Source: Aurantiochytrium sp. KH105 (Eukaryota > Sar > Bigyra > Thraustochytrida > Thraustochytriidae). Taken from it: a DNA stretch of 64,000 nucleotides. Of the stretch, positions 8,499 through 40,613 are shown one piece after another; the first letter of the stretch is position 1, and the number at the start of each line of letters is the position of its first letter. The stretch spans positions 189,171 through 253,170 of the forward strand of contig BGKB01000139.1 in assembly GCA_003116975.1 (NCBI GenBank), in the 5' to 3' direction. A program made the position numbers and the translations under genes. Below the pieces are notes generated by a model. The model made no database searches. It was given only the letters and a program-made list of their open reading frames with translations, and was not told the origin of the DNA.

Positions 8499-11126
8499 TT
8501 AGTACGGGATCTTGCCGTGATGATGATGGCATCCGCACGTGAGGTGGTCACGAAAACGACCATTTTTGCCCTCCATGTACGGCCCCGAGCGATGCAAGAC
8601 CGTATTGACGGCAGGCCCAGGGACAGACGCAGCATCGAGGCGAGGCTCGCCTGCGACAAAGACCTGCGTGACTTGGGCGGACAGCAAGCACTTGGGATCC
8701 GCGGCAATGTTCTCAGAGACCACGGTGAGGTCGGCCGCGAAACCCACCTCGATGCGACCTCGCGTTCCCTCCCGACGGGCCGCAAAATTGGCGCCCAAGG
8801 TATACAGATGAAGGGCCTGAGCAAATGAAAGACTTTCGTTATCATGAAAGGAGTCTGCTTGTGCGCGATCGTGAGACGAAGGACGATAAATGGCATCATA
8901 CATGCCCAGCAATGGGGCACAACATTCCACCGGGGCATCCGAAGAGCCGCTCACCTGGACGCCAGCGTTAAGCAGTGTCTTCCATGCGTACGAGTACTTG
9001 AGCTGTTCTCCATCCACGCGCTCGTTGATCCAGCTTGCGTCTGTGGGGACAAAGGTTGGCTGCACATTTGCAATGACCCCGCCTGACGCCATTTGCGCCA
9101 CAAGGTCGGCGCCGAGAATTTGACAATGGGTAAGCACAGGGCGATCACGAAAGGTGAGCCCGGCGCTCCGAAAGGCTCGAAGCATACACTCTGCGGCATA
9201 ATCGCCAATGGCGTGTGCCTCTACACGTAAATTCTGTGCGTGTGCCTCTGCAACCATCCGATCCAACTCGGTCTGGTCGTGGACAAGAATGCCCCGGTAC
9301 GAGTCGTCTGCACTTTTCGTTGTCGACGAGCCCGTGCCCTCTTTTGCTGTTGCTCCCTCGGTCCGAGTCTGCTGACTATCCGCGTCGAGGTTACGCAAGG
9401 CTGCGGTGTTTGCACCAAGGGCACCATCCGCAAAGAGCTTGACTCGATCAATGGCAAGCATACCGCTCGAGCTGCTCCAAGGTCCACTGACTTCGCCGTG
9501 CTGAGGCGTCAGCTGGACACGAATAGGAAGCTTGCCGTCACGATCGAGGGCGCGGTATACATCCAAGGTGCCTTCGTCATTCGTCTGTACCCCCGTGAGC
9601 CCAAAGCGCAGGCACTCTTGAAGTCCCTGCGTGATAGACTTTGCAATCACCGCCGGGTTCTTTTCAACAACGTGCGCCACCACCGCTTTGACGGCGTTTT
9701 CACGGAGAATTCCGGTCGCAGTCCCCGTAGATGGGTCCGTATCGATCTCGCCACCAGGCACCGGGGCCGGATTGGTGATAGAAATGTGCGATGCCTCGAG
9801 CGCAGCAGTGTTGGCCACGAGAATGTGCAAACAGACACGCCAGAGCACGACCTTTGTGCCCTCGGGCACGACGTCGTCCAGGTCTTGGCGCGTGGGCAGA
9901 CGGCCCATGCGTTCGTGGTCCCATCCAGTTCCGACGACCCACTCGCGATCGGGGTTCTTTTTCACAAAGGCGGCCAGACGTTGCTTGAGCTCGTCGATGC
10001 TCGCGCAACCGAGAAGGTCAAGATTGCGCTTGGTTTCACCAAGTTGATACACGTGAATGTGCGCGTCTGCGAGTCCTGGAAGCACAAAGGCCCCGCCGAG
10101 ATCGTGAATGATGCTGCTTTCGTCGTCGCCAGCGTCATCGCTCGAATCTGCCCGCAACGCGACAATCTTGTTACCACGCAAGACAAGCTCTTGGCCGCGC
10201 GGAGCAAAATCATTGAGCTCCCAGGACCAGAATCGGGCGTTTCGAAGGATGCGCACCGGTTCTGACTGCGCGCGAAACCATGGCGAAGCTGACGGCAAGT
10301 AGCGCGACAGTGCAGAGGCCGCAGCTGCGAGAGAGCCAGCACCGCTTTTACCTTTGCTGCCGTCGTCGACGTCCTTTTCGCCTTGTTCAGATCCCGTACT
10401 CTTCTCTTGCGCGCGAAGGCGAGCAGGATGAGTTGGGACCTTTTCGTGCGAAAGAAATGGACCTTGAAGCGCCTTGGGTGACCAGCGCGGCAAGTGGTCG
10501 CAAAGCGCTTGCATAAAGACCTCGAAGACGACGCGTTGACCTTGGCTCGAAAGATGCAGGCCGTCGATGAGAAGGCCCCGCGGGTCCTGCTTGGCATCAA
10601 GGGCGGAAAAGATGTCGACAAAGACGACCGAAGCGTCCTCGGCAAAGGTTGCGCGACAGGCTTCAGCGTAAACACGGGTGTTCGCATACGTTCGCTCAAG
10701 CTGGCCCGTTGCCTTGGCGCCGTACTTTTGGCGCTGATGCTCGAGGCGCATGGCCTCGTTGATGGGGGGCGGGTTCATGACCACGACGTCAGCGCCGCGC
10801 TCTTGAAAGGTCTTGACGATGATTTTAAGGTTTTCGCAGTATTCATCGACAGGCACAAATTGTCTTTTGCCCGTGGCGTTTAGTACGGCGTCATTTGCGC
10901 CAGCCCACACGACCACGAGCTCGCCTTCTTTTCTCACTGGGCCGAGGTCTTCTTTGAGAAGGCTACCGAGCGCCGCCAGGAGCCACCGCGACGAGTACCC
11001 CGAGAAACCGCGCGCCACAACGTCGGCGCGCCCCGCAAACGCGGTCGCCACAAGGCCGCACCATCCCCCCGCCTCAGCGAGCCCTCGGCTCGTAAGGCTG
11101 TCTCCGACGACTGTCACGCGCTTCAT
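8499..11126 (-). CDS. Fusion of SGNH/GDSL esterase and YtcJ-type amidohydrolase
   Basis: A single 875-aa frame joins two enzymes. Residues 1-220 form an SGNH esterase like IAH1 isoamyl-acetate hydrolase: GDS at 8-10 (nucleophile Ser10), GAND at 76-79, and DGLH at 188-191 supplying catalytic Asp and His. A linker rich in Lys, Gly and Ala (about 230-290) follows. Residues 291-875 are an amidohydrolase of the YtcJ (amidohydro_3) type with HIH metal ligands at 356-358, a VKLFADGALG lysine block, EAHAIGD, THCQ and SSDAP motifs, so the metal site looks complete. The C-terminus is CGCHHHHGKIPY. The start is the first ATG (11126), just before the esterase core strand RVTVVGDS; the frame is open further upstream without an ATG. 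Substrates are unknown. It diverges from the myosin gene. Confidence 0.85.
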   Translation of the reverse strand: MKRVTVVGDSLTSRGLAEAGGWCGLVATAFAGRADVVARGFSGYSSRWLLAALGSLLKEDLGPVRKEGELVVVWAGANDAVLNATGKRQFVPVDEYCENLKIIVKTFQERGADVVVMNPPPINEAMRLEHQRQKYGAKATGQLERTYANTRVYAEACRATFAEDASVVFVDIFSALDAKQDPRGLLIDGLHLSSQGQRVVFEVFMQALCDHLPRWSPKALQGPFLSHEKVPTHPARLRAQEKSTGSEQGEKDVDDGSKGKSGAGSLAAAASALSRYLPSASPWFRAQSEPVRILRNARFWSWELNDFAPRGQELVLRGNKIVALRADSSDDAGDDESSIIHDLGGAFVLPGLADAHIHVYQLGETKRNLDLLGCASIDELKQRLAAFVKKNPDREWVVGTGWDHERMGRLPTRQDLDDVVPEGTKVVLWRVCLHILVANTAALEASHISITNPAPVPGGEIDTDPSTGTATGILRENAVKAVVAHVVEKNPAVIAKSITQGLQECLRFGLTGVQTNDEGTLDVYRALDRDGKLPIRVQLTPQHGEVSGPWSSSSGMLAIDRVKLFADGALGANTAALRNLDADSQQTRTEGATAKEGTGSSTTKSADDSYRGILVHDQTELDRMVAEAHAQNLRVEAHAIGDYAAECMLRAFRSAGLTFRDRPVLTHCQILGADLVAQMASGGVIANVQPTFVPTDASWINERVDGEQLKYSYAWKTLLNAGVQVSGSSDAPVECCAPLLGMYDAIYRPSSHDRAQADSFHDNESLSFAQALHLYTLGANFAARREGTRGRIEVGFAADLTVVSENIAADPKCLLSAQVTQVFVAGEPRLDAASVPGPAVNTVLHRSGPYMEGKNGRFRDHLTCGCHHHHGKIPY

Positions 11127-12772
11127 CTTGCTCGCTTCTTCGACGCCCCCTTTGCCGGCAAGCTTCGCGCCGAGCGCAAGAAAGGCGCCTGCGAAAGGTC
11201 GACTGCTGTTACGGGTTTGGTCGATTTGGTGCTGCCGTGTTGTTGTCGACCCAGCTCCGACTGAGACCCTGCCAAAGCCCAGGCCCAAGCCGCACGGCTT
11301 CCGTGCCGGACGCTCCACGCGGCAAACCGTCCGGGCTGTCGCGCGATGGCGGTCTGTCTGCAGCACGCGCCGCGACGAGCTCAACTCAAATCACTCCACC
11401 TCGGAAAAATCTTCGGCTGTCGCAGAACGACGGACCCCGCGAGAGAATTCGGAACGCGACCGCACGACGCCGGCGACGGGAGGATCTTGCGTGCGTGACA
11501 GCACAGACAGCCTGGGAAGTAGGTACTTGCCAAGAAGACGCGCGCGCGATCAAGACTGCACACTGGCTGCTGCTGGCTGCCACTGCTGTCTATCGTGTCA
11601 CGGCTCGCTGGCTGGCAGGGTGGCCGACGACCCGCAAAAAGATCGTCGCGGGAACCTCGGTCCGCACGACGTTGCTCAGAGACGCATTCCCTGTCACACT
11701 GATGTCGACGATCCAAATCATGAACGCACGAGACGAACGAGCGCGTGCGATCTGCAGCTGCTGTGCTGCTGCCCCGCCGCTTCTCCCCTCGCTGCAGAAC
11801 CTTTCCCGGTGCGGCCGCAAGAGATCTGACCTATCTTCGAAAAGTGAGTCGCGCTGCGTTCTCCAAGAAAGGAAACTGTGAAAAAGAGAAAATGCGACTG
11901 CTGGGTGGACTCCTTTCGCTCTGCGCATGCGCCAGAGGCCGGCTCCCCCTGCGCGCACCCTGGAGGCCCGTTGAGAGCTGCGCCTCCGCGGCGCGGACCC
12001 GAACCGTCTCTAGTTACAAGAAGAGGCGCGAGACGCCAGGATCCAAATCCAATCCATTCGACGCCCGGGGGTGGACGACCGCCTGCGCCTGCCCGCTGGC
12101 CCGCCCTCCGCCGTCGCGCGCGCGGGGAGAGCGACCGAGCGACCGAGCGAGTGAGCGCCCTCCAACCCGGCGCCGCGCGCAGTCGCGAAGCAGCGGCTGC
12201 GAGCGCGGGACCTGCTGGGCTTCGATTTCATTTCGCCCGTCGGGGGGGCGTCAGAAGCCTGCCTGCGTGCGTGCGTGCTGAGCGCGCTCTCGCCACAGCT
12301 GAGCTCACGAGCCCCCGCCCGGTGCCTGCCGCCAGGCCCGGTCTGCGCTCGTCTGGGTCCTCTTCCGCTTGGGAAGCAGCAGCAGCAGCAGAAGCAGCAG
12401 CCAATATCGCGCGACCGCGCTGCGCAGGGTCCCGGAGCAGCAGGGATTTCGCGCAAGCAAGCGAGCAAGCTAGCTTGTACGGGGCGGCGCGACAAGGCAG
12501 ATCAAGTCGCGTTTCGTCACGCCAAGACTGCCCCAATCCAGGCTCGCGAGCGGCACCTCGACGCTCGCACGCACTCGCTCAAACAGCAACGTCGAGTCGA
12601 TCTGGTGAAGCCTTGGATTCATTCCTGGGTTTGCGATTATCTAGGGTAAAGTGAGGGCCTCGTGGGTGAAAGCGAACCACAAGCGCACCCTCACGCCAAA
12701 CAGAACGGCAAGTACCCCGAGCCGCTGTAAATATTCCCGCGCGCGCTGCGTACGGGAAGGAAAGCGGAGAGC
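11127..12772. promoter_or_regulatory. Long divergent promoter region, hydrolase fusion / myosin
   Basis: 1.65 kb of GC-rich DNA between two divergent starts, with a CAG-type run (about 12378-12402) and no convincing gene. An AT-rich element, TGTAAATATTCC, lies about 45 bp before the myosin ATG and could be a core promoter site. Short open frames in several phases are Arg/Pro/Ala-rich and lack family resemblance. Confidence 0.4.
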
Positions 12773-17360: not shown

Positions 17361-17385
17361 CCTAACCCCTCCCTTTCCGCCGCCC

Positions 17386-17395
17386 AGGGTTAGGG
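17386..17395 (+). promoter_or_regulatory. Telo-box AGGGTTAGGG upstream of RPL9
   Basis: AGGGTTAGGG lies about 298 bp before the RPL9 ATG; a related CCTAACCC is at 17361-17368 and GTTAGG at 17461-17466. The same 10-mer, in the same orientation relative to the gene, occurs before the ubiquitin-eS30 gene. Telomere-like boxes are known promoter elements of ribosomal-protein genes in plants; a role here is inference. Confidence 0.5.
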
Positions 17396-17477: not shown

Positions 17478-17572
17478 CGCAAGTGGGCTATGCGGCCGCG
17501 CGCAAGTGCGCGCGCGGCGGCGCGCAAGTGGAGCTCTCCGGCGCGCAAGTGGAGCTCTCCGCCGCGCAAGTG
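17478..17572 (+). promoter_or_regulatory. Phased array of five CGCAAGTG elements in the RPL9 promoter
   Basis: CGCAAGTG occurs at 17478, 17501, 17523, 17544 and 17565, giving spacings of 23, 22, 21 and 21 bp, close to two DNA helical turns. The last copy ends 112 bp before the RPL9 ATG. The first copy continues as GCAAGTGGGCTATG, a 14-mer also found in the array before ubiquitin-eS30. This looks like a coordinated binding-site array for a ribosomal-protein gene regulator (inference). Confidence 0.6.
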
Positions 17573-17683: not shown

Positions 17684-18571
17684 ATGAAGACCATCACCGC
17701 GTCGCGGCTCGTGCCCATCCCCGAGGGCGGTACGTGCTCCCCGCGCGGAGCGAGCGCGGGTCGGAGGTCTGCGCGCAGGCAGCGCGAGAGACGGATGCGC
17801 ATGGATGGATGGATGGATGGATGGATGGACGACCGGGTGGGTCTGCGCCATTGGCTGGCTGGCCGGCGAGGCGGCGAGGCGGCCAGCCGCGCTGGACAGC
17901 TTGAGGCGACAGGCGGCCTGGGGATCCAGACGCGTGGAGGGAGAGAGAAGGAGGACAGGGACGACCCCGAGAGGCGGCGAAAGAATGGAGAAAACTAACG
18001 GAGAAACGACGCTTTTGCGACTTTTGGACGAACAACTACAGTCGAGGTGACCCTCAAGGCCCGCACGGTCATCGTCGAGGGCCCCCGCGGCAAGCTGGAG
18101 CGTGACTACTCGCACCAGAGCGTGGAGATCACCAAGGTGGAGAAGGGCGAGGAGTCCTTCATCAAGGTGGAGAAATGGCACGGCCTCAAGAAGGAGCTCG
18201 CCTGCATCCGAAGCATCTGCAGCTCCATCTCCAACATGTTCACCGGTGTCACCAAGGGCTACCGATACAAGATGCGCCTGGTGTACGCTCACTTTCCCAT
18301 TAACGCCGTCATCAACGGCAACAAGGAGGTCGAGATCCGAAACTTCCTTGGCCAGAAGAAGGTGTTCCGCGTCAACATGCGTGCCGACACCACTATCGAG
18401 AAGGGCACCGCGGTCAAGGACCAGCTCATCCTCGAGGGTAACGACATTGACGCTGTCTCGCAGTCTGCTGCCGAGATCCAGTGCAAGTGCAAGGTCCGCA
18501 ACAAGGATATCCGTAAGTTCCTCGACGGTGTGTACGTCTCTGAGAAGGGCCCCATCGAGGACGAGGAATGA
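17684..18571 (+). CDS. RPL9: Large-subunit ribosomal protein uL6 (L9), two exons
   Basis: uL6 is a structural protein of the cytosolic 60S subunit near the GTPase-associated centre. Exon 1 is 17684..17729 and exon 2 is 18042..18571. The 312-nt intron (17730..18041) begins GTACGT, has a branch-like ACTAACG at 17994-18000 and ends TACAG. Joining G with TC gives GTC and the start MKTITASRLVPIPEGVEVTL, matching the eukaryotic uL6 start. The 191-aa product has the conserved blocks GVTKGYRYKMRLVYAHFPIN, VEIRNFLG, LILEGNDID and NKDIRKFLDGVYVSEKG, and its length equals the family norm. The intron sits after codon 15, as is common in ribosomal-protein genes, and contains a GGAT microsatellite. The promoter has the CGCAAGTG array and a telo-box. 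Confidence 0.95.
17801..17829. repeat. (ATGG)n microsatellite in the RPL9 intron
   Basis: About seven ATGG units lie inside the single RPL9 intron, far from the splice sites and branch site. Confidence 0.9.
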
Positions 18572-20519: not shown

Positions 20520-22613
20520 ATGGCCTCCACGTCCGCGAAGAAAGTGGCAGAGATGCCTGACGACATGTTCAACGCGTGCGTCAAAGCGGCCATGGAAAGC
20601 GGCAAGGAAAAGCTCAAGATGACGAGTGAGGAGCAAGAACAGTTCATGAGCGCGATGAAGAAGCCAGAGTTCACCAAACTCATGAAGGAGTACATGGATG
20701 AAATCTCGGACCCGAAATACCGCGAAGAGCAAGAGACCTACCTTCGGCAGCTGGAACGGGACAACCAGGTTCCGGAAAACATGCGCCTGGCTTATCCGAA
20801 AGCCGGCTTTGTCGTCAAGGCGAAGCGGCTGGAGCAGGGCAAGGAAGCCGGCAAGATTTTCATCAACATCTGTAGTCTGGAGGAACTCGAGCCACCTTCG
20901 GCGCAGCGCGGACCCAAGGGCGTCAGCTGGAGCCTTCCATATTCGCTTGGCCCCATGCGCCATGAAAAGGACAATCGGGCCGATGCCCATCCGACCTTTG
21001 ACTTTGCGCTGCATCCGGACGTTCTGCGGCGCTGCGTCAAGGACGACCGTTTCCGCAAGATGGTGATTGACACCGCTCTTGACGCCGTCGATAAGCGCAT
21101 CGCAGACGTCATGAAAGCGGACGTTAAAATTAAACGCATTACCGCCAAAGTTCTGCAAAATGTGGCTTGCATCGGAGGCAAACCTGCGGTGATGCAGATC
21201 GGTGTGGAAAAGGGCAAAGAGAACAAGAATGAGGCCAACGCAGGCGCCAACGCAACCAAGCTTGCACAGGCAGTTGCAGCAGGGGCAGGCGTTGGGGGAA
21301 ACAAAGGTGGAGATGCATCGAAGCCTTCTGCTGCTACGGTGCCACAGTCCAAAGCAACAAAGGGAATTGAAGTGCTGTCGGAAACAGAGGCCCCTGTAAA
21401 GGAAACGGCTCCGGAGCCCCCGAGCACACAGCCCAAGTATACGCTGACTCATCGTGGCAAGCTTGACCTTGGCGACTATGTGGAAGACGAGCGACTGCAG
21501 GCCCGAGCCAGTCTCATGAAGAGAAGACCCAAGGAGCTCGTCGTACGGGTGCAGGTGCCAAACATTAAATCGGCCAAGTACCTTGATATCGAAACTTCGG
21601 AGCATCTCTTCAAGCTCAGTACCGTCGCAGGAGCGCCTGCCGAGTATCTCTTGAATTTGGACCTGCCGTATCCGGTTGACGAGGACAACGGAGCGGCCAA
21701 GTTTGACAAGACTGCGCGCTTGCTCGAGGTGGTGCTCCCCGTTCGCCCGCCTTCTGACGAAGAGATTGAGCATCACGAACGAGCTCTTCAGGAGCGTGCG
21801 GCAGCCAGACCTGCTCAGCGTACCATAGAAAGCGTACCTTCTTCGCTCGTCCAAGACGTTTCTGTCGCAAGCTCGGGCGAGGCAGAAGATGCAGGGGCTA
21901 TACTTGCGAACTCTGAAGCGACAGACCAAAAAGAGTCAAGCTCAACTTCCGAAGAGCCTCAGTGTCAGATTCAGGACCCCAAGAAAGAGGACGAAAAGTC
22001 CTCGATGAACGAAGATCTAAAGGTGGAAGAAGAAGAAGAAGAAGATGAGGAGGAGGAGGAGGATAAGACCAACAAGGGACAGGAGCGGCGTGTGCGCTGG
22101 GCCGACGAAGCGAAGGGAGGCAAAGGTGACGAGGAAAAGACCTTGAGCGAAGCAGACAAGCTCGCCGAAATTCTTGCTGCTGCGAAAGCCGCAGCAGCAT
22201 TGCCTCTCCCGCGTCTTGAAGACCATGAGGAGACCAAGGAGTCGACGCCTGCAGAAGATGCCGCCCCGCCACCGGCAGTCCCCGAATCCGAAAGCATTCA
22301 GGACCCAGATAAGGACATGGAAGACCAGCTCGAGCAGTCGAATGGTGTGGCAGATGCCAACTTCATCCCCTCAAGTGCCTTTGGAGGCGCCAAGTCCGGT
22401 TTCGTCTTCAAGCGTGACACCCAAGGTCTGGGATATTACCGTGATGTTGCTCCGGCGGTTTCGCCGGTAACGTCAACGAGGCCTGCTGAAGCGAAGCAAG
22501 ACGATCCAGTTCCTTCAGCGCCGCGGGACGAGGGTCCTGTCGTCACCGAAAAGACGCACAAGCCCAGCAGCCGTCTCGAATTGCGGAACAAGAGCATCTT
22601 TGATTTGGATTAG
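20520..22613 (+). CDS. DNAAF2: Kintoun-type axonemal dynein assembly factor (PIH1 domain)
   Basis: Kintoun (DNAAF2/PF13) works with HSP90/HSP70 in the cytoplasm to preassemble axonemal dynein arms, so its presence implies motile flagella. The 697-aa product has the family start with KPEFTKLMKEYMDEISDPKYR, a PIH1 domain (about residues 40-205, with MRLAYPKAGFVVKAK, IFINIC, SLPYSLGP and HPTFDFALHPDVLRRC), and a second CS-like domain (about 310-420, KELVVRVQVPNIKSAKYLDIE to LLEVVLPV). A long acidic, disordered C-terminus follows, ending in SGFVFKRDTQGLGYYRD and a basic tail. I chose the ATG at 20520 because its product begins with the family-typical region; a GTG two codons upstream is not a plausible start. 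Confidence 0.9.
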   Translation: MASTSAKKVAEMPDDMFNACVKAAMESGKEKLKMTSEEQEQFMSAMKKPEFTKLMKEYMDEISDPKYREEQETYLRQLERDNQVPENMRLAYPKAGFVVKAKRLEQGKEAGKIFINICSLEELEPPSAQRGPKGVSWSLPYSLGPMRHEKDNRADAHPTFDFALHPDVLRRCVKDDRFRKMVIDTALDAVDKRIADVMKADVKIKRITAKVLQNVACIGGKPAVMQIGVEKGKENKNEANAGANATKLAQAVAAGAGVGGNKGGDASKPSAATVPQSKATKGIEVLSETEAPVKETAPEPPSTQPKYTLTHRGKLDLGDYVEDERLQARASLMKRRPKELVVRVQVPNIKSAKYLDIETSEHLFKLSTVAGAPAEYLLNLDLPYPVDEDNGAAKFDKTARLLEVVLPVRPPSDEEIEHHERALQERAAARPAQRTIESVPSSLVQDVSVASSGEAEDAGAILANSEATDQKESSSTSEEPQCQIQDPKKEDEKSSMNEDLKVEEEEEEDEEEEEDKTNKGQERRVRWADEAKGGKGDEEKTLSEADKLAEILAAAKAAAALPLPRLEDHEETKESTPAEDAAPPPAVPESESIQDPDKDMEDQLEQSNGVADANFIPSSAFGGAKSGFVFKRDTQGLGYYRDVAPAVSPVTSTRPAEAKQDDPVPSAPRDEGPVVTEKTHKPSSRLELRNKSIFDLD

Positions 22614-25614: not shown

Positions 25615-28077
25615 GGGCCTGGGTGGGAGAAATGCGTGCGCTGTTTTCAGCACCTGGCCAGCGAGGTGAGTCGCCGCAGTGTCAGCAGCGGCGGCGGCGC
25701 CCGGGCCCGCCTTCCTACCGACCGCACGGCTGCGACCGACCCCGGGCCGGCCGGCCGGCCAGCACGCGCGTTCGGACTGTCGTTGTCGGGGCTGTCAGCG
25801 GCCACCGCCGGCTGCAGCGGCGGCGGCGGCGGCGGGCGGCGGGCCGGGCTTGCCAGGCCACGAGGCGGCTGGACCACGGCCTCGTTCGTCTCGGCAGCTG
25901 CGTCGACCTTTTCCAACAAGCTCGAGCTCCTCTTCTTCTTCTTCTTCATCTTGTTCTTCTTCTGGGCTCGAAGCCACGCGGGAGTCTCGTGTGTCGCGGT
26001 CGCCCCTGTGCTGGCTGCAGCCATCCGCCCTCAGCCTGTCATGTCGTGCGTTGCGAGACCGAGTGTTCGACGGCGGCAGAGGCAGGGCTGCGAGGATATT
26101 CAACACGGCCAGCCATGCAAGCGAAGCGAAACCACAGGTTGCACGCAGCTCGAGTCGGCGCCCGTTCTCCCTTGCCCGAGCAACGCCGAGGCGTTGGTTG
26201 CTGCTGTTTGCAGTTGCTTGCTTGTTGACGGTGTTGCGAAATACAGTGTCGTACGCCGTCGCACCGCTGGACGGTGAAAGCTTTTCACTTGCGGTGAGCA
26301 CGAGAATGAATGACCAGCACGTCACAGTCGCGCCCCGTCGTGAGAATCTGTTTGCACTGCGCCGTGAAAAGCGGACCATCCTCCAAGAGAGCGCAGTGAG
26401 CGACTAACTTGAAGCGAAAACAGCTGCGCTGCCGCAGCCAGCCGGTCAGCCAGGCAGCCAGCCAGCCAGGCAGCCGGCCAGCCAGTCGAGCCACCCCTTG
26501 GCAGCACTCCCGGGCTTTGCAGCTGCAGCTGCAGCTGGTGCTGCTGGTGCTGCCACCCCACCAACCACCGGATTCCAGGGATCAATCAATCAATCGATGT
26601 GATGCGATCGACAGCGATCAATCTGCCGCCGAGATTGCGCAAATTAGGCGAGGCACACTGTGCTGTCCGCAGTGCAGCAGCAGCACAACATGCAAGCAGC
26701 AATCGAGGCAGGGAAGGAAGCCTCGCGTTCGTTCTCGCCTCCACGTGGCCGGCCTGTGCGGCTGCAGCTGCAGCGTCCGCGGCAGTGGCTGGTGCCGGCG
26801 GTCCATCCACCCATCGATCTCTCCGTACACCGTCGGGGAAAAAGGGCCCGCGAGGACCCGATCGCTCGCATCGCTAGCGCCTCTGCCTTTGCTTGCTTGC
26901 GGCCTTCTGCAATCCACAGCCAGGAGCAGCAAGGCAGACCTGAGAGCGCTTGCCTCCTCATATCTCACACACAGTCAGCCGCTGCCAGCAGCATCATAGC
27001 CACCCAGTCAGTCGTCAGCTCACGGTCAGCACTGGCCAGGTTTTCTCGGCAGCCACACCAGCCAGCCAGCCAGCCAGCAGCAGCCGGGCGACTGTTCAAC
27101 GCCGTCGCGAGCGCCGCGCCACCGAGAACTCGCTGCCGGCCCGCGCCGACCGGATGGGTGGCCAACTTGAATGAAGGAGGCGGGTGGCGGAGATGGGAAG
27201 ATAAAAAGAGGAAAGGAGAAATCCGCAAAAAGCTCCCAAGCCATGTTCTCATTGACTTTGCGAGACGCTTCCCGTCGGAGTGGCAGACAGGGGAATAGAA
27301 AAGGAACAAATATGAGCGGAAATGAGGACTCTGGGGCTCGGGGGTGGAGGGAGCGTCTTCCGGCGACCTCTTTGCAAGAACCAAGACCAGGACTTGGCCC
27401 AGACGAGGACGTTTGGTTGGCGTCAAAAAAATTTAATGGTGAATACAGGCTTGCCTGCTTGCTTGCTTGCTTGCTTGCTTGGTCACTCGCAGTCGACAAC
27501 CTCTGGGCCATACTTCTGCAGGCCCGTACGGCAGCCGGCCGGGTCTAGGAGGCTGGCTGCCCCTTCCTATTGCTTCTAATATTATTCTTATCAACACGAG
27601 CGACCCGGGGCCACGCGCTGGGCAATTTGCGCTGAAGCCGCACGCTGCCTCGGAACCTGCGCGACGGAGGAAGCTTGGCCAAATTGCGGAGGCTCCTGCT
27701 CGAAACTTTTGCGATTGCGGTCGCGGTCGCGGTTGAGCAAGCGCAACCAAGTAAGTAAGGAAACAAGCAAGCAAGCAAGCAAGGAAGAAAGGAAGGAAGC
27801 ACCATCAGCCGCTCGTCCGCACAAACGCAGAGCGTCTAACGTAGGGACTGCTTGTTTGCTCGTCATCATTATCAGCGGAGCAGTTGGCTGCCACAAACAA
27901 AGCAACGAGCAGATCGACGAGCAGCAAAACCAAAACCTGGTAGCCCCGGCCAAGCTTAGGCCAAGCAAGCAAGAAAGCAAGGGCCCAGTAGTTGTAGTAG
28001 CAGTAGTAGTAGCATCAAAAGACGCAAGACGCAAGAAGCAAAGGAAAAGAGAGACCAACCAAGTCAAGCCAAAGACG

Positions 28078-29931
28078 ATGGGCAAGACAGTGATCATCCC
28101 GCCATGGCGCGACATGCTGCCCTATGCCGTGGTCCGGTCCGGTGACTGGAACGGTTTCGCGCAGCTCTTCTTCGACAACGTCGGTACTATGCTGAGTCTG
28201 ATCGCCTCGCTCCAGACCGTCCTTACCGGTTTCAACGATAGCACGCTCATGTCGTACGAGGACGCGCCCGAGCTGGAGCCGTACTTCCAGCTCAAGTCCG
28301 ATATCATCTACAAGCGCATCATCCCGGGCTTTGGCTTTTCGTGCTTTTGCGGTGGATTGTTTTACGCTCTGCAGTGCATTCGCGTCAGTGCAATTCGTGG
28401 ATCGCAGGCGACCGCCCTCCCTTACGGTATCAATACGCCTGGATCTTTCGCCGTGCTCTTTAGCATCATTTCCGGCACCGTTTCCTCGTACAGCTCGGGG
28501 TGCGCGGATCTCATCACCGCGGGCACGAGCGAGGAGCTGACGCAGTTTTCTTCGTGCTGGGAAAACGCCATGGACCAGGGCTGGCGTGCCGGTGTCGTGA
28601 CGAACTTTTGCGTCGGTCTTATTTCGATGGCTCTCGCCGCCTGCTCCCGTTACCTCCTCAAGGTGACCCCGCCCCCCGCGCTCCTCACTGCGCTTTCGGG
28701 CATTGCCATTGCCTTTTTGGGTCTTACGCAGCTCGCCAACACGTACGCCGAGCCTGTGACCGGCCTCCTGCCGCTGTTTTTGATCTTCTTTCTGTACTTT
28801 GGCGATATTGATGTGCCGTACGTGCCCAAGGCGCTGATTGTGGTCGCGACCGGCGTGGTCATTGGCTGGGCCGACAGTGTCGTTACCCCGGACGGTGTCC
28901 GCGAGGCCGCCGCCAATGTAGAGTGGAACGGCCTCGAGACTGGCTTTCGCGCTCTCAGCGACTGGACCAGCGTGGGCGACTACATTGGCACCGTCTTTCC
29001 CGTTGCCATTGCTGCCGCCGCCGGTACCCTCATGAACGTGTACAGTGCCAAGATGGCCGGTGATACGTACGATGTGGTGGTGACAATGGTTTCGGATGGC
29101 TTTGGCACCGTCATTGCCGCCTTCTTTGGCTGCCCTTTCTCCACCTCCGTCTACATTGGCCACCCTGCCTACAAGAAGATGGAGGCTGGATCGTTTTACA
29201 GTACCTTTACGGGCTTTCTGCTGCTCATGCTTTCCGTCTCGGGTCTCTTTTCCATCATCGACGCCGTTGTTCCTCTCCAGGCCGTGTCGCCCATTATGTT
29301 CTTCGTCGGTATGATGATTTGCGCCGAGGCGGCCATGTCTGCAACCCCGCGTCAGCTTCCGACTGTGTTTTTTGGTCTCTTTTTCTCTCTCTCTGACTGG
29401 ACCACGCAGAACGGGTACGCGTACGGCACCACGACGCAGTTCTTTGGCTACGTGGCCATGGGCGAGGGTACGATCCTGTGCGCGCTCATTTCGACCAGTC
29501 TCGCCATCTTCATCATCGACCGTAACTACATTCCGGGTGTGATCTGGAGCGTTATTTCTGCCTTTCTCGCGGCCTTTGGCATTATTCACCAAACGGGCGC
29601 CTCTGTACAGAACTGGACTGAGCCGCAGGGCTCCGACGGGTACTGCCAGATCGACATGGTCGATGGCGAGTGCACGACGGAACGCAGCATTGCCTGTGGC
29701 ACTGACATGTGTGGTGCGGAGGGTACGACCAAGTGGCGCTTTATGACGGCTTACCTCATGATTGGTGCCGTCTGCGCCATTTTCCATTTTCTGCAGCTGC
29801 GCGGCTGGATCCCGGAGCCCATTGTTAACGAGGACGAGGAGGAATATGCTGAGGAGAATGCTCGCAAGCTCGTCTTCAAGGACGATGCCGTTGAGTCCAC
29901 GGCCGAAACGCCGGCCTCTGTGCAGCCTTAG
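28078..29931 (+). CDS. Xanthine/uracil permease-like transporter, copy 1
   Basis: A 617-aa multi-pass membrane protein with about 12 hydrophobic segments, assigned to the xanthine/uracil (NCS2-like) permeases. It has the family signatures SGDWNGFAQLFFDNVGTML, ATALPYGINTPGSF, TPPPALLTALSGIAIAFL, VFPVAIAAAAGTLMNVYSAK and CPFSTSVYIGHPAYKKMEAG. The start MGKTVIIPPWRDMLPY is at the only in-frame ATG; the frame is open upstream through repeat DNA without an ATG. A Cys-containing external loop near the end (YCQIDMVDGECTT, CGTDMCGAEGTTKWRF) precedes the last helix, and the tail is acidic. It is followed on the same strand by a close paralogue at 32732. The substrate, perhaps a nucleobase, is not settled by the sequence. 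Confidence 0.88.
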   Translation: MGKTVIIPPWRDMLPYAVVRSGDWNGFAQLFFDNVGTMLSLIASLQTVLTGFNDSTLMSYEDAPELEPYFQLKSDIIYKRIIPGFGFSCFCGGLFYALQCIRVSAIRGSQATALPYGINTPGSFAVLFSIISGTVSSYSSGCADLITAGTSEELTQFSSCWENAMDQGWRAGVVTNFCVGLISMALAACSRYLLKVTPPPALLTALSGIAIAFLGLTQLANTYAEPVTGLLPLFLIFFLYFGDIDVPYVPKALIVVATGVVIGWADSVVTPDGVREAAANVEWNGLETGFRALSDWTSVGDYIGTVFPVAIAAAAGTLMNVYSAKMAGDTYDVVVTMVSDGFGTVIAAFFGCPFSTSVYIGHPAYKKMEAGSFYSTFTGFLLLMLSVSGLFSIIDAVVPLQAVSPIMFFVGMMICAEAAMSATPRQLPTVFFGLFFSLSDWTTQNGYAYGTTTQFFGYVAMGEGTILCALISTSLAIFIIDRNYIPGVIWSVISAFLAAFGIIHQTGASVQNWTEPQGSDGYCQIDMVDGECTTERSIACGTDMCGAEGTTKWRFMTAYLMIGAVCAIFHFLQLRGWIPEPIVNEDEEEYAEENARKLVFKDDAVESTAETPASVQP

Positions 29932-31922: not shown

Positions 31923-32731
31923 TGCGAGCAACAGAACGCCTCGCGCTGCGTCAGAGCGCGCGAGCGCGCGAGCGACACGAGCGGCGTCCCTGGCGGTGCC
32001 GGGTCCCGCGGTCCTGGGATCCTGGAATCCCGCACATCCTACCTACATGAGGGCCGACTGCCTTCCTGCTGCGCGAGAAGGGACAGAGAACTGGGACGAG
32101 TCGCAGCCGATCTCGCCTCCGCCGCCTGGCTTGGCTTGGCCTGGCTTGGCCTGGCTCGGCCTGCCAACTCGGCTTGCCAACTCGGCCTGGTCGGCGTGGC
32201 CGCTCTTGCCTCGCGACCTTGCCTTCGAGTTCATCCAGCCAGCGACCTTGCCTTCGAGCTCAAGACTCAAGACGCTCGCTGAGCGGCGGCCGGCCGCTGC
32301 TGTCTCGCGCGGCCTCGTCTCTGGCGCCGCAGCTGCCCTCTGGAGTCGCGCTGCGGGCGCACTGGGACTGACTGTGTGCGGCAGAGCAGAGCGGAGCAGA
32401 GCAGAGCAGAGCGAGACAGCAGCCTCCGCGGGATGCGGCGACAGGACGCCTCGCTCGTCGCGACCCGACTCAAGTCAGCTCGGATGCAGAGGCAGGCAGA
32501 GACCCAAAGCGCAAACCCGGAGTCGCCCCGGCTGAGGCAACCCGGCGCAGACAGACAGACAGACAGACAGACAAACCAGACAAACAGACGTGCAACACGG
32601 CGCCGCGTCGGCAGACACGCAAGCAGACACGCACGCAAGCCAAACAAGGAGCAAGGCGCGGAGGAAACCCAAGGAGGGGATCGACCGATCAGTCGGTTGG
32701 TGAGCCTACAGAGAAAAAGAAGAACAAGAAG

Positions 32732-34753
32732 ATGGCCTTCAAGGTGGGCAACACCGTGGTGATCCCGCCATGGCGCGACATGCTGCCATACGCCAAGGTC
32801 AAGGCCGGAGACTGGAACGGGTTCTCGCAGCTTTTCTTCGACAATGTTGGCACCATGCTCGGCCTGATCGGATCCTTGGAACTCGTCCTCACCGGTTTCT
32901 ACGACTCCACCCTCATGACGTACGCGAGCGCCCCCGAACTGGAGCCCTTCTTTGACACCGTCCGGGAAATCATCTACAAGCGCGCCATTCCCGGATTCGG
33001 GTTCTCGTGCTTTTGCGGAGGCCTCTTTTACGCTCTCCAGTGCATTCGCGTCAGCACCTTGCGCGGCGAACAGGCCACGGCCATGCCCTACGGCATCAAT
33101 ACCCCGGGCTCCTTTGCAGTTCTCTTTAGCGTCATCTCCGGCACCGTCATACAGTACAGCTCGGGATGTTCAGCCCTCGTCACCACGGGGACCAGCGAGG
33201 AGCTCACTCAGTTCGCTGCATGCTGGGAAAATGCTGCCGATCAAGGCTGGCGCGCAGGCATCGTCACCAACTTTGTCGTTGGACTCATTTCAGTGGCCCT
33301 CTCCGCCTTTGCGCGCTGGCTCCTTAAAGTGACGCCCCCCCCTGCGCTCCTCACCTCGCTCTCTGGCATCGCCATTGCGTATCTGGGCCTCACGCAGCTC
33401 GCAAATACCTACGCCGAACCCATCACAGGCTTTCTTCCCCTCTTTCTCATCTTCTTTCTCTACTTTGGCGACGTCGATGTCCCCTACGTGCCCAAAGCCG
33501 TCATTGTCGTCGGCGCGGGCATCATCATTGGCTGGGCCGACAGCGTCCTCACCCCCGATGACGTCAAGACCGCTGTCGACAGCGTCGAGTGGTACGGCAT
33601 GGAAACCGGCTTCCGCGCCCTCGGCGACTGGACCAGCGTCAAGGACTACATTGGCACCGTCTTCCCCGTAGCAATCGCCGCCGCGGCAGGTACGCTCATG
33701 AACGTCTACAGTGCCAAGCTCGCCGGCGACACGTACAATGTTGAAGTCACCATGATCTCCGACGGTATCGGTACCATCATTGCCGCCTTCTTTGGATGCC
33801 CCTTTTCCACTTCTGTCTACATTGGCCATCCGGCCTACAAACTCATGGGCGCTGGATCCTTTTATAGCTCCTTTACGGGCTTTGTTCTGCTCATTCTCTC
33901 GGTTTCGGGCCTCTTTGCCCTCATTGACGCCATCGTGCCTCTCCAGGCCGTCGCGCCCATCATCTTCTTTGTCGGCATGATGATCTGTGCCGAGGCCGTG
34001 TCCTCGGCGGCGCCGCGCCAAGTCCCAGCCATCTTTTACGGTCTCTTCTTTTCCATTTCTGACTGGACCACACAGAACGGATTCGCCTACGGCACCACAA
34101 CGCAATTCTTTGGCTACGTGGGCATGGCCAAGGGCACGCTGCTCAACGCGCTCATTTCCACCAGTCTGGCCATCTTCATTATTGACCGTAACTACATCCC
34201 AGCCTTCATTTGGTGCATCATTGCTGCCTTCCTGTCGGCCTTTGGCATTATTCACCAGGTTGGAGCCGACGTTCAGGACTGGACTGCGCCGCAAGGATCC
34301 TCGGATCAGGGCGGCTATTGTCAGATTGACCCGGTCGACGGCGTCTGCACGGACCGCAGCCTCGCCTGCCTCGTCGATATGTGCGGCGCCGAGGGAACAA
34401 CAAAGTGGCGCTTCATGACGGCCTACCTCATGGTCGGCGTCGTCTGTCTCGGATTTTACGCTCTCCAGCGTTTTGGTGCTGTCGGGCCCACGCTCGCAAC
34501 GGCCGAGGAAGAGGAAGAGCTAGCCGAAAAGGGGGCGCGCGATCTCATGCACATGCCCTCGGAGAACCCTCGCAAGGGATCCGTGTCTCAGTCCGCCAAG
34601 GCTCTCGGCAACGACGACTCTACGCACTCTTCTGCATCGTCGCAGGAAAAGATCGATGACAATGACCCGTCCATCGAGCCTCATCAGTCGGAGGCAGTAG
34701 CGCAAGATGCCAAAACTGAATCAAAGGAAGAACACACTCTTTCCCAGGTTTAA
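32732..34753 (+). CDS. Xanthine/uracil permease-like transporter, copy 2
   Basis: 673 aa and collinear with copy 1 over the whole transport domain: AGDWNGFSQLFFDNVGTM, MPYGINTPGSFAVLFS, TPPPALLTSLSGIAIAYL, VFPVAIAAAAGTLMNVYSAK and CPFSTSVYIGHPAYKLMGAG are near-identical blocks. It starts MAFKVGNTVVIPPWRDMLPY, four residues longer than copy 1. The C-terminal tail is about 60 residues longer and unrelated to that of copy 1; it is rich in Ser, Glu and Asp (PSENPRKGSVSQSAKALG), suggesting different sorting or phosphorylation (inference). Same strand and order as copy 1 point to an old tandem duplication. No intron is needed. Confidence 0.88.
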   Translation: MAFKVGNTVVIPPWRDMLPYAKVKAGDWNGFSQLFFDNVGTMLGLIGSLELVLTGFYDSTLMTYASAPELEPFFDTVREIIYKRAIPGFGFSCFCGGLFYALQCIRVSTLRGEQATAMPYGINTPGSFAVLFSVISGTVIQYSSGCSALVTTGTSEELTQFAACWENAADQGWRAGIVTNFVVGLISVALSAFARWLLKVTPPPALLTSLSGIAIAYLGLTQLANTYAEPITGFLPLFLIFFLYFGDVDVPYVPKAVIVVGAGIIIGWADSVLTPDDVKTAVDSVEWYGMETGFRALGDWTSVKDYIGTVFPVAIAAAAGTLMNVYSAKLAGDTYNVEVTMISDGIGTIIAAFFGCPFSTSVYIGHPAYKLMGAGSFYSSFTGFVLLILSVSGLFALIDAIVPLQAVAPIIFFVGMMICAEAVSSAAPRQVPAIFYGLFFSISDWTTQNGFAYGTTTQFFGYVGMAKGTLLNALISTSLAIFIIDRNYIPAFIWCIIAAFLSAFGIIHQVGADVQDWTAPQGSSDQGGYCQIDPVDGVCTDRSLACLVDMCGAEGTTKWRFMTAYLMVGVVCLGFYALQRFGAVGPTLATAEEEEELAEKGARDLMHMPSENPRKGSVSQSAKALGNDDSTHSSASSQEKIDDNDPSIEPHQSEAVAQDAKTESKEEHTLSQV

Positions 34754-38942: not shown

Positions 38943-39970
<1,028 letters not shown>

Positions 39971-40355: not shown

Positions 40356-40366
40356 ACCCTAACCCT
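40356..40366 (-). promoter_or_regulatory. Telo-box AGGGTTAGGGT upstream of ubiquitin-eS30
   Basis: The minus strand reads AGGGTTAGGGT about 390 bp before the ubiquitin-eS30 ATG. The 10-base core is identical to the element before RPL9. Confidence 0.5.
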
Positions 40367-40613
40367 GGATAAAGTTAAGGCGGGACACGCGCCACCGACG
40401 GGGTAGCGTGCACGATAATGCGGCGGGGGCACGCGGAAGGTTAGACCGGGGACGGGGTGTGCGAAAAAGGGATAGACCGGGGACGGGGTGTGCGCCGGGA
40501 CTGGGGACCGAGGGGGGCGGGACCCAAACGGGTTTCACAATACAAACGAGCCCCAGGCGAGGCGGGGAAGACGCGGCGGCAGCAAGAGCAGCAGCAGCAG
40601 CAGCAGCGGGATT

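Follow-up and report, generated by a model that had tools for sequence, protein, structure and literature searches.

The window (here the whole 64-kb stretch of DNA under analysis) contains two rows of the word GCAAGTG, which we denote arrays A and B. Array A stands in front of the uL6 gene on the forward strand; array B, which the initial annotation of this DNA had overlooked, stands before the ubiquitin-eS30 gene on the reverse strand. The features of the two promoters are as follows.

17478..17572, + strand: array A, five copies of CGCAAGTG starting at 17478, 17501, 17523, 17544 and 17565
17489..17492, + strand: AT-rich word TATG of array A unit 1, from comparison of the sequence with the unit profile
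17684..18571, + strand: uL6 gene, ATG at 17684, exon 2 spanning ∼18044 to the stop codon at 18571
38943..39970, - strand: ubiquitin-eS30 gene, ATG at 39970, exon 2 spanning ∼39400 to the stop codon
40153..40201, - strand: array B, three GCAAGTG cores at 40201-40195, 40180-40174 and 40159-40153, spaced 21 and 21 bp

The initial annotation had reported five exact copies of CGCAAGTG in front of uL6, spaced 23, 22, 21 and 21 bp, and we re-found all five in place, with GCAAGTG cores at 17479, 17502, 17524, 17545 and 17566 (+). The last copy is separated from the uL6 ATG by 111 bases. The identity of the gene also held, the exon-2 frame matching the Pfam family Ribosomal_L6 with an E-value of 1.2e-22; exon 1 is short, with an intron after ∼16 codons (exon 1 and the splice sites were placed by eye). 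In local Markov-2 simulations, three copies within 110 bp arose in none of 15,059 runs, and two copies arose in six. Over the whole window CGCAAGTG was found 10 times against an expectation of 4.35, a number reached by one of 100 shuffles; the five copies outside array A are solitary and on the minus strand.

Array B ends 182 bp before the ubiquitin-eS30 ATG. The gene encodes a fusion with Pfam matches to ubiquitin (E-value 4.3e-33) and Ribosomal_S30 (2.2e-27) and is, like uL6, a ribosomal-protein (RP) gene; its intron directly follows ATGCAG, as judged by eye. A coding-potential scan of the window, trained on seven of its frames including both RP genes, yielded 27 segments, of which 25 were compared with Pfam and two low-complexity segments were left out. 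Among these 25, uL6 and ubiquitin-eS30 were the only RP genes. Arrays of at least three cores are confined in the window to A and B, both at RP genes, and the remaining 25 coding segments lack them (two out of two RP genes found; Fisher p = 0.003, counting coding segments as genes).

The window also holds two similar long frames in tandem on the forward strand (28051-29925 and 32681-34732), which share an IPPWRDMLPYA stretch; neither has a Pfam match at 1e-3, and their permease-like appearance is a judgement by eye only. On the reverse strand, a single reading frame (8502-11384) combines GDSL lipase and amidohydrolase domains.

Unit and spacing across the genome

We searched the 76.03-Mb assembly (367 contigs) for pairs of the element. 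Allowing up to two mismatches, GCGCAAGTG-N12-GCGCAAGTG occurred at 616 places, compared with 27 for the reversed pattern, and exact GCGCAAGTG-N{1,31}-GCGCAAGTG at 400 places, compared with 0. Inverted pairs (GCAAGTG...CACTTGC) were found at 256 places, against 14 for the reversed control, and everted pairs (CACTTGC...GCAAGTG) at 249, against one. These counts include allelic duplicates because both haplotypes seem to be present in the assembly, as near-identical places on paired contigs (e.g., C3/C19 and C5/C21) suggest. The exact pair at 19-23 bp spacing also occurred in viral contigs (19 stretches) and in prokaryote contigs (at least 118 stretches); by eye, these appear to be tandem repeats, coding or simple, or chance matches.

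Spacing figures were taken from the first places in contig order, comprising 100 of the 400 direct, 50 of the 256 inverted and 50 of the 249 everted pairs. The initial annotation had described the copies in front of uL6 as helically phased, and this property extends well beyond that gene. Of 100 direct pairs listed, 98 are spaced 19-23 bp from core to core although 10-40 bp was allowed, with a mean of 21.26 bp and the other two pairs at 29 and 38 bp. That many copies are helically phased, genome-wide rather than at one gene, is strongly supported, and the recurrence of a fixed core every two turns or so of the helix exceeds chance. Measured between core centers, inverted pairs peak at 24.82 bp (45 out of 50 listed within 22-27 bp) and everted pairs at 17.62 bp (37 out of 50 within 15-20 bp), leaving five and 13 listed places, respectively, outside the peaks.

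These three values can be related by a lattice model in which the center of each unit is offset by x from the center of its core, such that the inverted spacing equals the lattice distance plus 2x and the everted spacing the same distance minus 2x. Using in-peak places only, the mean of the inverted and everted peaks gives a lattice distance of 21.22 bp (95% bootstrap 21.03-21.42), and the direct pairs give an independent estimate of 21.26 bp (21.07-21.44), a difference of -0.03 bp (-0.30 to 0.24); the footprint center falls 1.80 bp (1.70-1.90) 3' of the core center, all of these bootstrap ranges being too narrow because of the allelic duplicates. A single orientation-free lattice of 21.2 bp explains all three spacing peaks, namely the direct one and those at 24.8 and 17.6 bp.

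We then pooled footprint distances over orientations for both window promoters and 21 fetched array loci, the latter taken from the top of the listing by contig (C1 to C6) rather than drawn at random. Distances gathered at 20-23 bp (61 counts) and 40-46 bp (38 counts), with weaker clusters near 59-66, 79-82 and 101-105 bp, a few strays elsewhere, and two counts in total between 25 and 37 bp. Among the 100 listed direct pairs, none was spaced 10 or 31 bp. Spacings of one or three turns are rare, which, as an inference from the distances, speaks for packing of neighbors over mere same-face placement. One misfit to the lattice is an eS12 promoter (locus L004) whose seven forward cores come in groups 76 and 38 bp apart. 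By eye, reversed units (CGACTTGCGGCGCG) at intervals of ∼20-22 bp directly follow the last forward core of this promoter.

Within the window, the relaxed word SCAAGTS occurs at 54 sites on both strands, most of them solitary and eight within arrays A and B. Pairs at a footprint distance of 19.5-23.2 or 40-45 bp are exclusive in the window to the uL6 promoter and array B. Two looser pairs with a spacing of 19 bp, at 22372 (+) and at 8694 (-, in a coding frame), are both single pairs.

The repeated unit is bipartite, GCAAGTG-N3-AT-rich word. In 75 units from array loci, where GCAAGTG was fixed by selection of the units, a C precedes the core in 70 and GC-like bases lie further 5'; on the 3' side, three mostly G/C bases are followed by an AT-rich word, most commonly AATG, TATC or CAAA. 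The spacers of inverted pairs, made up of 3' sides, have an A+T content of 57%, 79% and 69% at positions +4 to +6 beyond the core, falling to 6%-9% at +8 to +11 (86 arms), whereas the spacers of everted pairs, made up of 5' sides, stay at 3%-12% at every position (72 arms). The rise in inverted but not everted spacers places the AT word on the 3' side of the unit.

The window arrays follow this profile in part. An AT-rich word is present in only one of the five units of array A (TATG in unit 1), the same place reading GCGC, CTCT, CTCT and CTCC in units 2-5, and in units 1 and 2 of array B (TATG, TATG and CTCC). The initial annotation had also held that the sequence between copies varies. This holds only in part: copies 3 and 4 of array A share 97% identity over 29-mers, and at other places in the genome the spacers are almost purely G/C apart from an AT-rich word in a constant position.

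Genes and upstream words at the arrays

Of the 21 fetched array loci, 18 have a coding-like segment (score of at least 15) downstream on the array strand, three of these being weak (L005, L019 and L030). As for the other three loci, a forward OPA3-like start in L028 was recognized by eye alone, and in L020 and L025 the segment is divergent. Altogether, a segment running divergently on the upstream side was seen in seven loci (L018, L020, L023, L025, L026, L028 and L030). In 11 out of 21 loci, with ATGs picked by eye, the start codon follows the last core by 55-433 bp. At these loci and in the two window promoters, the arrays stand just upstream of gene starts.

Pfam matches on the forward side comprise eS6, an eS12-type Ribosomal_L7Ae protein, eL22, CK2 alpha (best E-value 3.6e-179), CK2 beta, nicastrin, PDH E2, a UBR protein, an Hpt protein, an RPEL protein and a CoA-binding/PLP protein. 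On the divergent side we found NDUFA9, a CHCH protein, a cytochrome-b5/acyl-CoA dehydrogenase protein and a kinase. The forward segments of L005, L006, L008, L009, L013 and L022 had no Pfam match, and neither had L020. The CoA-binding/PLP protein is encoded by one frame (L023, 1900-3021, +) that joins a CoA-binding domain to a Cys/Met-metabolism PLP enzyme behind a possible mitochondrial leader. Both CK2 subunits carry arrays, beta at L021 and alpha at L027, which is notable in so small a sample. In yeast, CK2 is linked to RP transcription.

Some RP promoters carry a further, telo-box-like word upstream of the array. Exact copies of it lie at three places.

17384..17395, + strand: CCAGGGTTAGGG, a telo-box-like word 83 bp upstream of the first core in array A
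40357..40368, - strand: CCAGGGTTAGGG, a telo-box-like word 155 bp upstream of the first core in array B
1227-1238 of L029, + strand: telo-box-like word CCAGGGTTAGGG, ∼250 bp before the eL22 array

A TTAGGG/CCCTAA-type word is present in this exact form in three out of five RP promoters (uL6, ubiquitin-eS30 and eL22), and its G strand is the coding strand each time. The eS6 promoter has a partial word only (CCCTAA), and no telo-box-like word was found in the eS12 promoter. Allowing two mismatches, the window holds no copy of CCAGGGTTAGGG beyond the two at its RP promoters, and the 30 fetched loci hold, besides the eL22 copy, only two weak ones (L021 and L026). GTTAGG also occurs elsewhere than at RP genes (31593 and 62241), and TTAGGG occurs once in a non-RP locus (L013). 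We rejected the shorter AACCCTAA, for which a search of the window allowing one mismatch showed no enrichment (16 copies compared with 18.1 expected); only the longer CCAGGGTTAGGG stands out.

Candidate explanations

We read the array as a proximal promoter element of growth and housekeeping genes, a close-packed row of sites to which a putative factor would bind cooperatively, and assign this reading a probability of roughly 0.7. One sequence-specific DNA-binding protein or complex would recognize sites ∼14 bp long (GCAAGTG-N3-AT-rich word), with each bound copy occupying ∼21 bp. Bound copies would pack every 21.2 bp, equal to two helical turns, such that all lie along the same side of the helix and each touches its neighbors, and a flipped copy would keep its place in the lattice. 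The filled row could serve as an activator or as a nucleosome-excluding platform just upstream of the gene start; at RP genes, it may often be joined by the telo-box-like word upstream, with which it might co-operate.

The initial annotation had proposed a factor dedicated to the RP regulon, in which case arrays at other genes would be incidental. RP genes do appear over-represented: both of those found in the window have an array of at least three cores while its other 25 segments have none, and the 21 fetched array loci include three RP genes (if the base rate is taken as 0.5%-1%, P is 1.6e-4 to 1.2e-3). The link is not exclusive, however: 18 of these 21 loci are without an RP identification, and at CK2 alpha, CK2 beta, PDH E2, nicastrin and the UBR protein, among others, arrays are present with the GCAAGTG unit and its spacing unchanged. 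The element extends beyond RP genes, and we consider a dedicated RP factor unlikely.

Two further explanations were weighed. Without a sequence-specific factor, helix-phased AT steps in G/C-rich DNA could by themselves position or exclude a nucleosome, and the nearly G/C-only spacers, the AT words at fixed places and the spacing of about two turns are what such bend-coding DNA might look like. Bending, though, has no need of an exact word of seven to nine bases, which recurs here against 0, 14 and one places for the patterns in reverse; the distance from AA to the AT word within a unit is ∼8.5 bp rather than 10.5 bp, and the listed direct pairs lack the 10- and 31-bp spacings. We regard this explanation as improbable. 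A minisatellite, in which a 21-bp unit is duplicated locally in tandem and kept by slippage, could account for the near-identity of copies 3 and 4 of array A and for the repeated spacers at some loci (L009 and L022). Against it, spacers differ in most of the 21 loci while core and distance stay constant, the GCAAGTG core recurs at unrelated genes, and flipped units stand at the distances predicted by the lattice, which slippage would not produce. The arrays are not made up only of near-identical head-to-tail units. Tandem duplication is unlikely as their sole cause, and as a full account of the element we give it very little credence.

Returning to the packed promoter element, a bolder version holds that a eukaryotic protein forms an orientation-indifferent row with one subunit per 21.2 bp and thereby marks a growth regulon (ribosome, CK2 and mitochondria), a general regulatory factor that would act as a packed oligomer and not through single sites. 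This version is tentative, and we think it rather doubtful at present.

Known systems and significance

At S. cerevisiae RP promoters, Rap1 binds neighboring oriented tandem sites, usually about two, that form a platform for cofactors. The arrays may be likened to this arrangement by analogy, as oriented neighboring sites upstream of RP genes, but their sequence is another one and a row here can have three to seven cores rather than about two. Compared with oriented tandem sites of general factors, the arrays stand apart in their strict spacing, in the single 21.2-bp lattice that covers three orientations and in having more units.

The fungal factor Tbf1 has a role at Candida RP genes. It is described as a TTAGGG-binding factor of ascomycete yeasts, in a context in which telomere-binding factors were repeatedly co-opted at RP genes; its Candida albicans site is reported as a strict TTAGGG-N6-CCCTAA palindrome, while S. 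cerevisiae sites reportedly require neither a given orientation nor a given spacing (PMC2834713). On this description, Tbf1 is comparable with the telomere-like word only, the GCAAGTG unit being by contrast strictly spaced. In land plants, the promoters of cytoplasmic and mitochondrial RP genes are described as combining a telo-box (AAACCCT) with site II (PMC3212954). This resembles the RP promoters studied here in joining a telomere-repeat-like word to a second motif; that motif is GCCCA in plants and GCAAGTG here, and the available portions of the plant source describe no 21-bp array (PMC3212954).

A further comparison is with the PhRiboBox of Phytophthora (an oomycete), reported as a 12-nt motif that sits near the start in most RP genes. 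Its median distance from the start codon is given as 64 nt; both orientations are similarly frequent, and genes outside the RP set that act in transcription, translation or DNA replication have it too (PMC4696810). As described there, it is like the GCAAGTG element in being short, start-proximal, present in both orientations and not restricted to RP genes; it is unlike the arrays in that the available text mentions neither an array nor a fixed spacing (PMC4696810). The string 'GCAAGT' is absent from the main text of that paper, in which the consensus letters stand in a figure. Among the literature matches listed, in the openings of abstracts from a set lying mostly outside the subscription journals, no GCAAGTG array is described.

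To our knowledge, little is known of promoter grammar beyond animals, plants and fungi. The spacing rules alone yield a likely footprint of ∼21 bp centered 1.8 bp 3' of the core center; they also show that orientation makes no difference and that spacings of one or three turns are rare. Since the rules predict a footprint, the putative factor should be directly findable with a short DNA bait. The co-ordination of ribosome, CK2 and mitochondrial genes in this lineage becomes testable, and if the host is an industrial protist, the arrays could double as compact promoters.
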